Origin: Candidatus Tectimicrobiota bacterium
Lineage (GTDB): Bacteria > JACPSX01
DNA: 5,660 nucleotides
Direction of reading: 5' to 3'
NCBI GenBank assembly: GCA_016193065.1
Contig: JACPSX010000272.1
Coordinates: 1 to 5,660, forward strand
Part shown: positions 1 to 4,661 of the stretch, in pieces
Position numbering within the stretch: position 1 is the stretch's first letter
Layout: each line of letters opens with the position of its first letter
Notes under the pieces: model-generated
Database searches by the model: none
What the model was told of the DNA's origin: nothing
What the model saw: the letters and a program-made list of their open reading frames with translations, nothing else
Made by a program: the position numbers and the translations under genes

Positions 1-740
1 CGCTTCTGCCGGGCCACGAAGGCAAACCCGGCGCCGAGCTCGAGCAGAAAGGATTCCATTTCCCGCAGGATGCCGGCTTCGAGGTCTTTCTCGCTGTAGG
101 TGTCCTTCAGCCCGAGAAAGTCGAGGAAGTAGGGATCGCGGAAGACAAGGTCGGGGGAGAGGCGATCCTCATCACGCAGGGTCTGAAGTTCCTGCTTGAT
201 GAGCTTCTCCGGCTTTTTCGAGAGGGCGGTGCGCTCGTAGAGCATCGAACCAATCTGTCTGCGCAGCATGCGGACGCTCCAACGTTCGATGCGGCACATC
301 TCGGCGTAGAAGTCGCGCTGGAGCGGGTCTTTGATCGGGAGCAAGGCAATGAAATGGCTCCAGCTCAATTGTCGTAACAGTGTCACGACAATTTGTTCAT
401 CCGGGATCGCTTCGGTAAATTGCACCATCCGGCGGAGGTTCTTCTCCGAGAAGCCACGGCCAAACTCCTGCTCCAATTGTCGTGACAGCGATACGACAAT
501 TTCTTCGCCGTATTCCGCCCGCTTCTCCTTCAAAATCTCCCGCCGGACGCGGTCGCCCACCTGCCAATAGAGCCTGGTTAGTCCGGCATTGACCGCCTGC
601 GCCACCTGATTGCGGGCAGATAGGATCAACTCCCGGATTTCGGTATGCAGGGATGGCGGCGGATGTATGAGCGATGCAGCGCGCTGGAGAGATCCCCGTT
701 TGCTGCTTCGGGTATGCTTCTTCTCTGCTCTCTCAGGCAT
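1..740 (-). CDS. DUF1016/YhcG-family putative nuclease, partial (3' end off the window)
   Basis: The frame reads 246 codons from ATG at 740 and leaves the window open. Family features seen: an N-terminal helical segment with RLYWQVGDRV near residue 57, EIVVSLSRQL near 80, GFSEKNLRRMVQF near 94, QIVVTLLRQLSWSHF near 116, then FYAEMCRIERWSVR, LRRQIGSMLYERT and the DPYFLDFLGL motif near 205. This matches the DUF1016 N-terminal domain and the beginning of the PDDEXK-like C-terminal domain. Known members run to about 340-375 residues, so the catalytic core lies outside the window and activity cannot be judged. DUF1016 proteins are predicted PDDEXK nucleases often carried in accessory or defence regions; their reaction is not established. 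The start is supported by AAGGA at 748-752, seven bases upstream, and by a promoter at 805-833. Its position beside a recombinase remnant at the tmRNA end suggests an accessory gene. Confidence 0.9.
   Translation of the reverse strand, partial: MPERAEKKHTRSSKRGSLQRAASLIHPPPSLHTEIRELILSARNQVAQAVNAGLTRLYWQVGDRVRREILKEKRAEYGEEIVVSLSRQLEQEFGRGFSEKNLRRMVQFTEAIPDEQIVVTLLRQLSWSHFIALLPIKDPLQRDFYAEMCRIERWSVRMLRRQIGSMLYERTALSKKPEKLIKQELQTLRDEDRLSPDLVFRDPYFLDFLGLKDTYSEKDLEAGILREMESFLLELGAGFAFVARQK
366..394. repeat. Intragenic near-perfect palindrome, copy 1
   Basis: Bases 367-379 and 381-393 are reverse complements with a single mismatch around centre 380; the outer nine bases (AATTGTCGT / ACGACAATT) pair perfectly. 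On the minus strand it encodes QIVVTLLRQL of the DUF1016 protein. It matches the second copy at 474-502 at 25 of 29 positions. The protein motif explains part of the symmetry, but the codons used (TTA, CGA, CAA, TTG) are unusual for a GC-rich gene. Confidence 0.75.
474..502. repeat. Intragenic palindrome, copy 2
   Basis: The same nine-base arms as copy 1 occur at 475-483 and 493-501, with a nine-base less symmetric centre. It encodes EIVVSLSRQL of the DUF1016 protein. The two copies are in the same frame and 108 bp (36 codons) apart, so they correspond to an internal repeat of the protein motif as well as a DNA repeat. Confidence 0.7.
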
Positions 741-1555: not shown

Positions 1556-2020
1556 TTACTCCCGTTTCTTGCGGTCCCGGAACGCCCGTTCCACTTCCCG
1601 GTCCGCCTCCCGGCGCTTAACGTCTTCCCGGCGGTCGTATTGCTTCTTCCCACGGGCCAGGGCAATCTCCACCTTCGCCCTGCCCCGCACGAAAAAGAGG
1701 CGAAGGGGGATCAGCGTGTACCCCTTCAGGGTCGCCCCCCCGTACAGTTTCTTGATCTCGCGCTTGTGCAGGAGGAGCTTGCGGGAGCGCAGCGGTTCGT
1801 GGTTAAACTGGTTGCCGGCCGAGTAGGGGCTGATGTGGCAATGCTGGAGATAGACTTCCCCATCCACGACCTCGGCGTAGCTGTCCTTGAGGTTTGCCTT
1901 CCCCTCGCGCAGGGATTTGACCTCGGTCCCCTTCAGAGCGAGCCCCGCCTCAAAGACCTCTTCAATGAAGTAGTCATGGTGCGCTCTGCGGTTCGTGCAG
2001 ATGATCTTTTCGCCGGCCAT
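1556..2020 (-). CDS. smpB: SsrA-binding protein SmpB
   Basis: SmpB binds the tRNA-like domain of tmRNA and delivers it to stalled ribosomes, its tail occupying the empty mRNA channel. The 154-residue product has the usual length. Motifs seen: [10 protein letters not shown] at 10-19, [19 protein letters not shown] at 26-44, [11 protein letters not shown] at 60-70, the HKREI segment at 85-89, and RGKKQYDRR at 123-131 followed by a highly basic tail (to 154) that in this family becomes helical on the ribosome. The ATG at 2020 directly precedes the conserved beta-barrel start; its ribosome binding site is weak (GGGG at 2030-2033, nine bases away). It lies 161 bp downstream of rlmN and upstream of ssrA on one strand, the classic smpB-ssrA pairing. 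A TATGAT at 2051-2056 could be a -10 element but has no good -35 partner. Confidence 0.97.
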
Positions 2021-2077
2021 GAATCGTATCCCCTGTACTCATCTACCTCTATCATATCGGTTTCCGGCCGGTCCGGG

Positions 2078-2172
2078 GCGAATTTTTCGCTTTGCAGGTG
2101 TTCCTGCCACCTGAATCCTCCCCCACAAAGGTGGGAGGAGATGCGGAAGGGGAAAGGTTGGGATGGGGGGGG
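2078..2172. repeat. Intergenic hairpin and G-run element between rlmN and smpB
   Basis: This 161-bp gap contains three adjacent stems: 2078-2082 with 2086-2090 (5 bp), 2095-2100 with 2108-2113 (6 bp), and 2116-2126 with 2131-2139 (9 bp with a two-base bulge, loop AAAG). They are followed on the plus strand by G runs at 2149-2152, 2160-2162 and 2165-2172 that fit a four-tract quadruplex pattern. The mix of C-rich pyrimidine sequence and a G/C stem resembles dispersed intergenic palindromic repeats, but only one copy is in view. On the minus strand none of the stems has a proper U tract, so read-through from rlmN into smpB is possible. Confidence 0.4.
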
Positions 2173-2181
2173 ACTCCTGGG

Positions 2182-3249
2182 TCAGCCGACGGAGGCGGAA
2201 ACGGCAAGCTCGTTCAAGATCTGAGGATTGGTGACCAGTTGCCCGCAGGCGGCCAGGATGTCGGCCCCCCGGCTTTCGCGGATCGTGGCCGTCAGATGGC
2301 TGCTCTGCAGGATATCTTGAAAAGCCGCCAGCTTCTGGGGAGACGGACGGTGAAACAAAGCACCCGGAAAGGGATTAAAGGGGATCAGGTTGATCTTACA
2401 GGGGATGCCACGCAGCAGGCGAGCCAGTTCTGCAGCCTGTTCGGGGGAATCATTGACGCCTTCCAGCAAAACATACTCAAAGGTGATGCGCCGGCGCGGG
2501 GCGAGCGGGAACTGGCGGCAGGCCTCCAGGAGAACCGGCAGGGGGTATTTCTTGTTGATGGGCATGATCCGGGTGCGGACCGGATCAGAAGACGCATTTA
2601 AGGACACCGCTAAGTTGACCTTCAGGTCCTCCTGCCCGAGCTTCTTGATGGCCGGAGCCAAGCCGCTTGTGGACAGGGTGATGCGCCGGGGGGAGATGGA
2701 CATCCCTTTGGGGTCAGTCATCAGGCGGATGGCCTTGACCACCTCCCGGTAGTTGTCCAGTGGTTCCCCCATTCCCATGAAGACATAGTTCGTGAGCTTT
2801 TCTTCGGGAGAGAGTTCCCGGGCCACCGACAGAACCTGATCGACGATTTCCCAGGCCCGCAAATTGCGTGTAAAGCCGCCCACCCCCGTCAGGCAGAACT
2901 TGCAGTCGAGCTTGCAGCCCACCTGGGTGGAGATGCACAGCGTGCGGCGGTCTTCGTCCGGGATCAGGACGCTTTCGATCCGGAGGCCGTCTTCCAGCCC
3001 GAAGAGAAATTTCCGTGTCCCATCAGCGGCGGTATGCGCGCGGACCAACTCCAGCGTTCCAATCCCCGCCACTTCCCCGAGGCGGCTGCGAAACTCCTTG
3101 GAAAGGTTGGTCATGTCATCAATCTGTGTCACCCCCTTCGCAAAGACCCAGTCGTAAATCTGGCGGGCGTTATAGGCCTTGCCCTCCAAATCCCCGACCA
3201 TCTCCTCCATTTCCGGAAGAGTGAGATCTTTCAGATTGACAGACGACAT
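2182..3249 (-). CDS. rlmN: Dual-specificity RNA C2-methyladenosine methyltransferase RlmN
   Basis: RlmN is a radical-SAM enzyme that methylates C2 of A2503 in 23S rRNA and of A37 in some tRNAs. The 355-residue product has the normal length. Seen: the IESVLIP strand at 91-97, the iron-sulfur motif C112-x3-C116-x2-C119 (GCKLDCKFC), the SAM-binding GMGEP at 159-163, and the two family cysteines C105 (RRTLCIS) and C335 (ILAACGQL), which in E. coli are C118 and C355 (methyl carrier and its partner). The FEYVLLEGVND block (257-267) and NLIPFNPFPG (287-296) confirm the family; the two cysteines and the RNA-type N terminus separate it from other radical-SAM proteins. The ATG at 3249 has GAGGA at 3254-3258, four bases away. 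All catalytic residues are present. It diverges from the cyclase gene across a 317-bp control region. Confidence 0.97.
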   Translation of the reverse strand: MSSVNLKDLTLPEMEEMVGDLEGKAYNARQIYDWVFAKGVTQIDDMTNLSKEFRSRLGEVAGIGTLELVRAHTAADGTRKFLFGLEDGLRIESVLIPDEDRRTLCISTQVGCKLDCKFCLTGVGGFTRNLRAWEIVDQVLSVARELSPEEKLTNYVFMGMGEPLDNYREVVKAIRLMTDPKGMSISPRRITLSTSGLAPAIKKLGQEDLKVNLAVSLNASSDPVRTRIMPINKKYPLPVLLEACRQFPLAPRRRITFEYVLLEGVNDSPEQAAELARLLRGIPCKINLIPFNPFPGALFHRPSPQKLAAFQDILQSSHLTATIRESRGADILAACGQLVTNPQILNELAVSASVG

Positions 3250-3291
3250 GGAATCCTCGCAGTCTTCAGAGTCTTCTCCGGACCCACCCGC

Positions 3292-3320
3292 ACGTTACCA
3301 CAGCCCCCGAACCCGGACAA
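3292..3320 (-). promoter_or_regulatory. Possible promoter for rlmN
   Basis: On the minus strand TTGTCC (3315-3320), 17 bases and TAACGT (3292-3297) form a weak sigma-70-like pair, matching consensus at four and three of six positions. It would give a leader of roughly 36 bases to the rlmN ATG. Other spacings in this region look worse, but the match is poor enough to be chance. Confidence 0.25.
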
Positions 3321-3325
3321 GGCGA

Positions 3326-3364
3326 TGCACCGAGAACTGTGCAATTTGCACATGGATTTGTGCA
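3326..3364. promoter_or_regulatory. Two tandem operator-like palindromes, 21 bp apart
   Basis: The pattern TGCAC-N8-GTGCA occurs twice: 3326-3343 and 3347-3364. All four half sites are exact, and corresponding half sites are 21 bp apart, about two helical turns, so two dimers would bind the same face of the DNA. The inner half sites also form the perfect 15-bp palindrome TGTGCAATTTGCACA (3338-3352). The pair lies about 120-160 bp upstream of the predicted cyclase start, the usual place for a sigma-54 enhancer site. The half sites resemble those of NtrC (TGCAC-N7-GTGCA), but the spacing is one base longer, so I do not assign a regulator. It could also act on rlmN. Confidence 0.6.
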
Positions 3365-3462
3365 ACGCTTTCGTCGCGGCCGGACACGGGAAAAAATTAC
3401 CTGCAACCCATTATCTTCCATGAGGTACCCGGGGACACTTTTCTCTGCGGGCGCCGTGTCGC

Positions 3463-3477
3463 GGCACCATTCTTGCT
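3463..3477 (+). promoter_or_regulatory. Sigma-54 (-24/-12) promoter for the cyclase gene
   Basis: GGCAC at 3463-3467, five bases, then TTGCT at 3473-3477 match the sigma-54 consensus GGCAC-N5-TTGCW exactly, with the invariant GG and GC ten bases apart. The base before GG is C rather than T. Transcription would begin near 3488, about 79 bases before the ATG at 3567. Tandem palindromes upstream (3326-3364) supply a plausible activator site. No convincing sigma-70 promoter was seen for this gene. Confidence 0.6.
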
Positions 3478-3555
3478 TTCGAAATTGGTATCTATCTTTC
3501 CCACGGCAACAGAGACGCAACCCACGGAAATGGCCACTGAAACTCCTGCCTCCAG

Positions 3556-3561
3556 AAGGAG
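3556..3561 (+). promoter_or_regulatory. Ribosome binding site fixing the cyclase start
   Basis: AAGGAG is followed by five bases and ATG at 3567. It decides the start: the same frame is open back to an ATG at 3339, but that extension overlaps the sigma-54 promoter and operator region and encodes a basic, non-domain-like peptide. Confidence 0.85.
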
Positions 3562-3566
3562 CCGCC

Positions 3567-4661
3567 ATGGACACCACGAATGACCTCCACGAGAACATCA
3601 TCGAAAGCCTCACCTCCGGCCTCATGGTCATCGATTCCCGCACGTTTCAGATCCTGAGCTTCAACAAGGCGCTGGAGCGGATCACGGGTCTTTCCCGAAC
3701 CCAGGTCCTCAACAGGTCCGTCGAGGAAGTTTTCTCTTACGTCCAGGGACTCTCCTGCGCGGACCTGGCCCGGGAGATGTGGGAAAAAGGGGTGGTCACC
3801 CGCCCCCGCATGCGCGTCACCCGTCCCACGGGGGAGGACGTGTACCGGGGACTCAAGGCCGAGCCCCTTTATTCCCGCCAGGGGGAGGCGATGGGGATCG
3901 TCGTGCACATTGAAGACGTGACCGAGCGGGAGATCCTGCGGGAGAGCTTCAGCCGCTACGTGGCCCACCAGGTCGTGGAGGCGATCCTCTCCGAGAAGCA
4001 AAAACTCAACCTCTCCGGGTGCCGGCAGGAAGTGACGATCCTCTTCGCCGACATTCGCGGGTTCACGGAGCTCGCCGAGAGCCAGGAGCCGGAAGCGGTG
4101 GTCTCTCTCCTGAACGGATACTTCTCCCGCATGGTCGACGTGGTCCTCAAATACGAGGGGACGCTGGACAAGTTCGTGGGAGATACCGTGATGGCCGTCT
4201 TTGGCGCCCCCATGAGCCGGGAGGATGACACCGAGCGGGCCCTGCGCGCCGCCATTGAAATGCAATCCGAGATGGTGCGCTTCAACGCCGAGCGGGAGGA
4301 GGCAGGCGAAGAGCCCATCCACATCGGCATCGGCATCAATACGGGGATCGCCATCGTGGGCAACGTGGGCTCCGAGAAGCGCATGGACTACACGGTGATC
4401 GGCGACGCCGTCAACGTGGCCGACCGCATCCAGAACCTCTCCCGCGGCGGCGAGATCCTGGTGAGCGAGCACACCTACCGCAAGGCGAGCCAGGTGATCC
4501 GGGGAAGACCTCTATCCTCGGGACGAGTGCGGGGGAGGGTGAACCCCGTGAAGATTTACCTGATTGAAGGGCTCAAGGAAGAGGGTGCTCCGGAAGACTC
4601 GCAGGCATTGGAAAAGAACGCGGCCACCTCGGATTTCACCTCCGCGAGCCTCTCAATCTGA
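3567..4661 (+). CDS. PAS-domain class III adenylate cyclase, soluble
   Basis: Predicted to convert ATP to cyclic AMP in the cytoplasm. The 364-residue product has a PAS sensor domain (about 8-120: GLMVIDSRTFQILSFNKALERITG, ending HIEDVTERE), a short linker helix with FSRYVAHQVVEAIL (128-141), and a class III catalytic domain (about 150-336). Catalytic residues seen: metal ligands D162 (FADIRGF) and D206 (DKFVGD), purine-recognition K202 and T276, and transition-state N283 and R287 (VIGDAVNVADR). Lys plus Thr at the specificity positions is the class IIIb pattern for adenylate, not guanylate, cyclases; some IIIb enzymes respond to bicarbonate. No membrane segment or signal peptide is evident. 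The active set is complete; as a lone catalytic domain it should work as a homodimer. The ligand of the PAS domain cannot be told. A sigma-54 promoter lies upstream, and the last 35 codons overlap dusB tail-to-tail. Confidence 0.93.
   Translation: MDTTNDLHENIIESLTSGLMVIDSRTFQILSFNKALERITGLSRTQVLNRSVEEVFSYVQGLSCADLAREMWEKGVVTRPRMRVTRPTGEDVYRGLKAEPLYSRQGEAMGIVVHIEDVTEREILRESFSRYVAHQVVEAILSEKQKLNLSGCRQEVTILFADIRGFTELAESQEPEAVVSLLNGYFSRMVDVVLKYEGTLDKFVGDTVMAVFGAPMSREDDTERALRAAIEMQSEMVRFNAEREEAGEEPIHIGIGINTGIAIVGNVGSEKRMDYTVIGDAVNVADRIQNLSRGGEILVSEHTYRKASQVIRGRPLSSGRVRGRVNPVKIYLIEGLKEEGAPEDSQALEKNAATSDFTSASLSI

Follow-up and report, generated by a model that had tools for sequence, protein, structure and literature searches.

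The nearest known counterpart of the DNA element described here is the enhancer of NtrC (NRI), with the consensus TGCACC(A/T)4TGGTGCA, examples of which are found at the Salmonella glnA and glnK-amtB genes (PMC4987338). Control of type IV pilus genes by a sigma-54 activator is represented by the PilS-PilR systems that act on pilA in Pseudomonas aeruginosa and Geobacter; in P. aeruginosa pilA is under PilR control, and cAMP falls when PilA is lost (PMC6058289). Few descriptions appear to exist of an adenylate cyclase gene, of comEA or of comM under sigma-54 control. A non-exhaustive search of the open-access literature yielded only two cases: (i) FleQ, a protein of the sigma-54 activator family and the nearest precedent that we found for an adenylate cyclase gene, which acts on cyaA in Pseudomonas putida without the need for RpoN binding or ATPase activity (PMC8125075), and (ii) Ralstonia, in which natural competence needs rpoN1 (PMC4371752). 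The same search gave no sigma-54 controlled set that joins comEA, comM, pilB and a cyclase gene, and nothing relevant was found in the open-access literature on TGCACA/TGTGCA operators. A class III cyclase is tied to pilus function in the CyaB-cAMP-Vfr system of P. aeruginosa. There the link runs as signalling, from the pilus system to the activity of the cyclase and to Vfr.

The window studied here is a stretch of 5,660 nucleotides, contig C259 of a 2.9-Mb, 294-contig and 86%-complete metagenome-assembled genome (MAG) of a Candidatus Tectimicrobiota bacterium. Its palindromes share with the NtrC enhancers the TGCAC/GTGCA half-sites, the A/T-rich centre and the position upstream of a -24/-12 promoter, but the half-sites are 8 and not 7 bp apart (a unit of 18 instead of 17 bp), the dimer sites follow each other at 21 bp, and none of the target genes can be recognised as a nitrogen gene. 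As in the PilS-PilR systems, a sigma-54 activator would act on type IV pilus genes, and a PilS is present here too, whereas the pilA gene of this genome has a TGACA-N5-TGTCA pair and the TGCACA arrays are probably those of another activator. The cyclase gene differs from the cyaA gene acted on by FleQ in that it has the classical layout of a sigma-54 enhancer and promoter, and in contrast to the CyaB-cAMP-Vfr system the link proposed here would consist of shared transcription of the cyclase gene.

The cyclase gene and its upstream region

The palindromes and the -24/-12 element are both located in the 317-bp gap between the divergently oriented rlmN and cyclase genes (Table 1). The original prediction, made from the sequence of the window, had placed two TGCAC-N8-GTGCA palindromes 21 bp apart in this gap, followed by a GGCAC-N5-TTGCT about 120 bp further on and by a strong ribosome binding site, and these elements were all confirmed. 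Both palindromes are exact, GGCAC-N5-TTGCT is an exact match at 3463-3477 that starts 119 bp after palindrome 1, and the ribosome binding site precedes the ATG of the cyclase gene. The distance from palindrome 2 to the -24/-12 element is 98 bp. On the basis of base composition 0.007 single TGCAC-N8-GTGCA sites would be expected per window by chance. With their 21-bp spacing the tandem dimer sites lie on the same face of the DNA, upstream of the promoter and in a layout that recurs at other putative promoters of the genome, as is characteristic of the enhancer (UAS) of an enhancer-binding protein (EBP).

The -24/-12 element has one mismatch to TGGCAC-N5-TTGCW, in that the -24 hexamer opens with C instead of T. 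It scores 7.8, out of a maximum of 8.6, with fixed weights that we chose ourselves after the published consensus, in keeping with a sigma-54 promoter sequence. Taken alone, such a match is no more than moderately unusual (empirical p ~0.002 within 60-180 bp); the enhancer-promoter layout is convincing because it is repeated at four other loci. A scan of positions 3230-3600 brought up neither a sigma-70-type promoter nor a terminator.

Table 1. Coordinates of the features in the window (C259), at the other array loci and upstream of pilA
Feature	Contig	Position	Strand	Description
rlmN, divergent neighbour	C259	2182..3249	-	RlmN_N and Radical_SAM domain matches
Palindrome 1	C259	3326..3343	.	TGCACCGAGAACTGTGCA; putative dimer site of an activator, forming the enhancer's upstream half; PWM 21.9
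Inner inverted repeat	C259	3338..3352	.	TGTGCA-ATT-TGCACA; made by the abutting half-sites of palindromes 1 and 2
Palindrome 2	C259	3347..3364	.	TGCACATGGATTTGTGCA; putative dimer site of an activator; spacing to palindrome 1 is 21 bp (two helical turns)
Sigma-54 -24/-12 element	C259	3462..3477	+	CGGCACCATTCTTGCT; GG at 3463-3464, GC at 3475-3476, GG-N10-GC intact
Ribosome binding site	C259	3554..3561	+	AGAAGGAG; read from the sequence; ATG at 3567
Gene behind the array: PAS domain and class III nucleotide cyclase, 364 aa	C259	3567..4661	+	PF00211 5.7e-31; PAS PF13426 1.4e-10
-24/-12 element	C55			AGGTACGGTTCTTGCT; 163 bp from array, outer side
Genes behind the array	C55	4106-4354 (82-aa ORF)	+	82-aa ORF straight after the putative promoter, then ComEA (HHH)
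-24/-12 element	C67			TGGCACTCCTCTTGCT; 122 bp from array, outer side
Gene behind the array	C67			Protein with RHS core domain and apparent signal peptide
-24/-12 element	C228			TGGTATTTCTTTTGCT; 98 bp from array, outer side
Gene behind the array	C228			ComM/YifB, above NCBIfam cut-off
-24/-12 element	C294			TGGCACCTCTTTTGCT; 117 bp from array, outer side
Genes behind the array	C294			GspH/FimU-type minor pilin, then PilB (T2SSE and MshEN)
pilA upstream palindromes	C161 (L197)	35-82
pilA upstream sigma-54 element	C161 (L197)	188-203		TGGCATGAGGGTTGCT

The gene downstream had been taken for an adenylate cyclase, and the features of the encoded protein agree with that assignment. Besides the PF00211 match, the metal, Lys and N/R motifs of class III cyclases are present (LDKFVGD and YTVIGDAVNVADR), and an adenylate cyclase is predicted on account of the Lys in LDKFVGD. 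The solved structures closest to the cyclase domain are a bacteriophytochrome-cyclase fusion, 2w01 and CyaB of P. aeruginosa, the last of which (3r5g) matches at an E-value of 1.8e-42. The protein is predicted to be a CyaB/CyaC-type adenylate cyclase, and cAMP would be its product. At its 3' end the reading frame overlaps that of the convergent dusB gene by 106 bp (4556-4661). Elsewhere in the window a tmRNA gene (RF00023) adjoins smpB (1099-1457 and 1556-2020, both on the minus strand).

Recurrence of the array and the genes behind it

The sites, their layout, their recurrence and the gene content of the loci were established by computation. The exact pattern TGCAC-N8-GTGCA occurs nine times in the whole genome, against two occurrences of the reversed control pattern. 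Nearly all of these nine sites extend to TGCACA-N6-TGTGCA, eight are accompanied by one or more additional in-register half-sites, and eight are located in six loci, in arrays of at least three half-sites. A genome-wide search for the extended array TGCACA-N6-TGTGCA-N2-T-TGCACA (TGCACANNNNNNTGTGCANNTTGCACA) returned six loci with zero or one mismatch, on contigs C55, C67, C228, C259 (the window), C279 and C294, and the third half-site is present in all of them. The next-best match in the genome was a single one with three mismatches; the control for the three-half-site pattern gave one match per strand at up to three mismatches. A weight matrix made from the array sites was scanned over about 260 kb of the genome's own contigs, where the array copies scored about 22-31 and the best other sequence 13.1, with the exception of C228:3167 (21.6). 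This isolated exact site, which has neither a third half-site nor a good sigma-54 element nearby, was regarded as a chance occurrence.

A search for other TGCAC-N8-GTGCA arrays near sigma-54 promoters had been proposed along with the original prediction, and such arrays were indeed found: a -24/-12 element accompanies the array at five of the six loci, including the window. The best scores within 60-180 bp of the six arrays are 7.4, 8.3, 7.0, 5.9, 8.3 and 7.8. A score of at least 7.0 at five of six arrays corresponds to p-values of 8e-8 (binomial) and 1.7e-8 (Fisher) against a background of 1.18 Mb of the same genome, sampled at 60,000 random positions with coding sequence included and not restricted to intergenic regions. 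Elements that score 7.8 or higher number 16 in this 1.18 Mb, and three of them are found at arrays. The five strong elements all end in TTGCT and lie 98-163 bp from the arrays.

Genes related to the pilus or to DNA uptake share the array, as a set of candidate sites, at three of the six loci (pilin-pilB, comEA and comM), and because of this the six loci may be read as a pilus/DNA-uptake regulon. The array on C279 (4478-4516) consists of the same 21-bp palindrome pair as in the window but is located between convergent genes, with no convincing ORF, tRNA or Rfam match nearby and no good sigma-54 element.

Several other features were observed around the arrays. On C279 a segment at 3998-4110, about 370 bp from the array and just past an SLC13 gene, reads IIGDAVNAAQRLLTMA and resembles a fragment of a class III cyclase. 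On C55 the 82-aa ORF has a good ribosome binding site, and a gene for a sensor kinase (1998-3842, plus strand; sCache, HAMP, PAS and HisKA domains) ends 35 bp before the array, without an adjacent response regulator gene. Another gene of C294, away from the array, encodes PilY1.

A close relative of the MAG was not found in the collections searched. When the cyclase was compared with 59 genomes across the domain, mainly catalytic-domain paralogues were retrieved (best 45-46%, over residues 117-337), and the palindromes are absent from all of the retrieved loci. The best matches of RlmN, with 56-59% identity, are found in MAGs of Nitrospirae and Nitrospinae; no cyclase gene was found beside rlmN in the retrieved loci of these relatives, and 35 of their genomes yielded no array, apart from one chance-level match, as was also the case for 77 Nitrospinota and 395 Nitrospirota genomes, with no match at all. 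In 386 genomes across the domain only scattered matches or repeats were obtained; most of those inspected are either intragenic or in intergenic DNA that lacks a sigma-54 element, and G039 has a repeat-like series. An unrelated genome has an imperfect array (G596:C10:62559, L168) 87 bp before TGGCCTGATATTTGCT and a response regulator gene, and this may be a similar enhancer. Elsewhere (G749:C28:10580, L179/L192) a close copy of the palindrome pair precedes a gene for a patatin-like phospholipase, without a sigma-54 element.

Sigma-54 and the candidate activators

The genome encodes 15 strong Sigma54_activat domains and one weaker one, and GAFTGA is present in most of the activators that were fully read. 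Although rpoN was not found by PF04552 or TIGR02395 in the 86%-complete assembly, the presence of GAFTGA activators implies that a sigma-54 should exist. Among the activators read, only a protein encoded on C105 has an NtrC-type recognition helix (GINRNTLRKK). Its gene comes after that of an NtrB-like kinase, and the protein matches TIGR01818 over its full length with 547.8 bits, which is slightly below the equivalog cut-off of 558.6. Judged by the likeness of its recognition helix it is the best candidate for the activator of the arrays, an identification that we make with considerable reserve; most likely the activator is either this protein or a product of the 14% of the genome that the assembly lacks.

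All array sites have the N8 spacing and thus differ from the 17-bp NtrC site TGCAC-N7-GTGCA. Three exact N7 sites occur in the genome, outside the array loci and without recognisable promoter context; they do not form a regulon, and a regulon with NtrC spacing was discarded. Genes for glutamine synthetase, PII or Amt were not recognised by motif within 1.18 Mb.

PilR is a poor candidate for the protein that binds the arrays, as pilA carries another palindrome pair. The pilA gene (C161, 347-898, plus strand), which encodes the major pilin, is preceded by two TGACA-N5-TGTCA palindromes 33 bp apart and then by a sigma-54 element, and no other TTGACA-extended palindromes of this type were found within 1.18 Mb. 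The genome has a PilS gene on C61 (6TM_PilS). None of the activators read contains a helix like that of Pseudomonas PilR. Since the pilA palindromes differ from the TGCACA arrays, a second activator is likely, and it appears that the pilus genes in this genome are under the control of two sigma-54 activators.

A proposed regulon for DNA uptake and its alternatives

The central claim of the original prediction, that an enhancer-binding protein and sigma-54 control the cyclase gene, finds good support in the sequence, with array and -24/-12 element co-occurring at five of six loci and 15-16 strong activators encoded in the genome. The region 3326-3477 very probably constitutes a sigma-54 enhancer-promoter, and it seems somewhat probable that the cyclase belongs to a small pilus/DNA-uptake regulon. 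We infer that an activator binds to the sites and that the genes are transcribed with sigma-54. A dimeric activator of the NtrC superfamily would bind the two neighbouring 18-bp sites, which share one face of the DNA, and oligomerise, the DNA would loop to allow contact with the sigma-54 RNA polymerase at 3462-3477, and the cyclase mRNA would be initiated near 3488, the predicted transcription start. The same activator would drive the minor pilin-pilB operon, comEA behind the small ORF, comM/yifB, the gene for the secreted Rhs-core protein and the cyclase gene. With one activator for the array promoters, the cyclase would be made along with the pilus/DNA-uptake machinery.

As a plausible but tentative reading, we propose that a new activator of the NtrC superfamily, other than that of pilA, reads the 18-bp TGCACA-N6-TGTGCA arrays and governs a sigma-54 regulon for DNA uptake; besides pilus assembly, ComEA and ComM, this regulon would have an adenylate cyclase of its own. 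In that case cAMP would be a product of the competence programme and not only its trigger.

The arrays might instead be the enhancers of a general NtrC-type regulon, e.g. for nitrogen or starvation, of which few members are left in the incomplete assembly and for which the pilus/DNA-uptake theme is accidental or too narrow. The half-site of the array is that of NtrC, TGCAC (PMC4987338), an NtrC-type protein and an NtrB-like partner are encoded, and the assembly is 86% complete. The members, moreover, include an Rhs-core protein, an array without a gene and the C55 promoter with a small ORF first. We nevertheless consider such a regulon rather unlikely, given that pilus and competence genes (pilin-PilB, ComEA, ComM) are found at three of the six loci and that no further array emerged from the pattern search of the whole assembly.

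Alternatively, the palindromes could bind a dimeric regulator that is not an EBP, for instance of the CRP/FNR family, with the cyclase autoregulated via cAMP and the -24/-12 match a coincidence. In Haemophilus the competence genes are driven by cAMP-CRP at TGCGA-N6-TCGCA, and both the CRP-like size of TGCACA-N6-TGTGCA and the genes behind the arrays would fit control of this type. It is quite improbable, however, with sites some 110-200 bp ahead of the predicted starts, which is far for ordinary CRP activation, with good -24/-12 elements at five of the six array loci and with no sigma-70-type promoter found in the gap; by the weak test of a motif search, no CRP-type HTH was recognised in 1.18 Mb either. 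That the array serves only rlmN, or is a repression operator, with the cyclase promoter unrelated, is highly improbable: of the two gene starts that of rlmN is the nearer to the array (76 bp from palindrome 1), and 3326-3364 could in principle act on rlmN as well, but in four further cases the array is directed towards the sigma-54 element of a neighbouring gene, and in the window such an element is present on the cyclase side only.

If the proposed sigma-54 regulon for DNA uptake is true, cAMP synthesis would be tied to the expression of pilus and DNA-uptake genes in an uncultured lineage, and the arrays would represent a clean motif with six target loci, open to in vitro testing.
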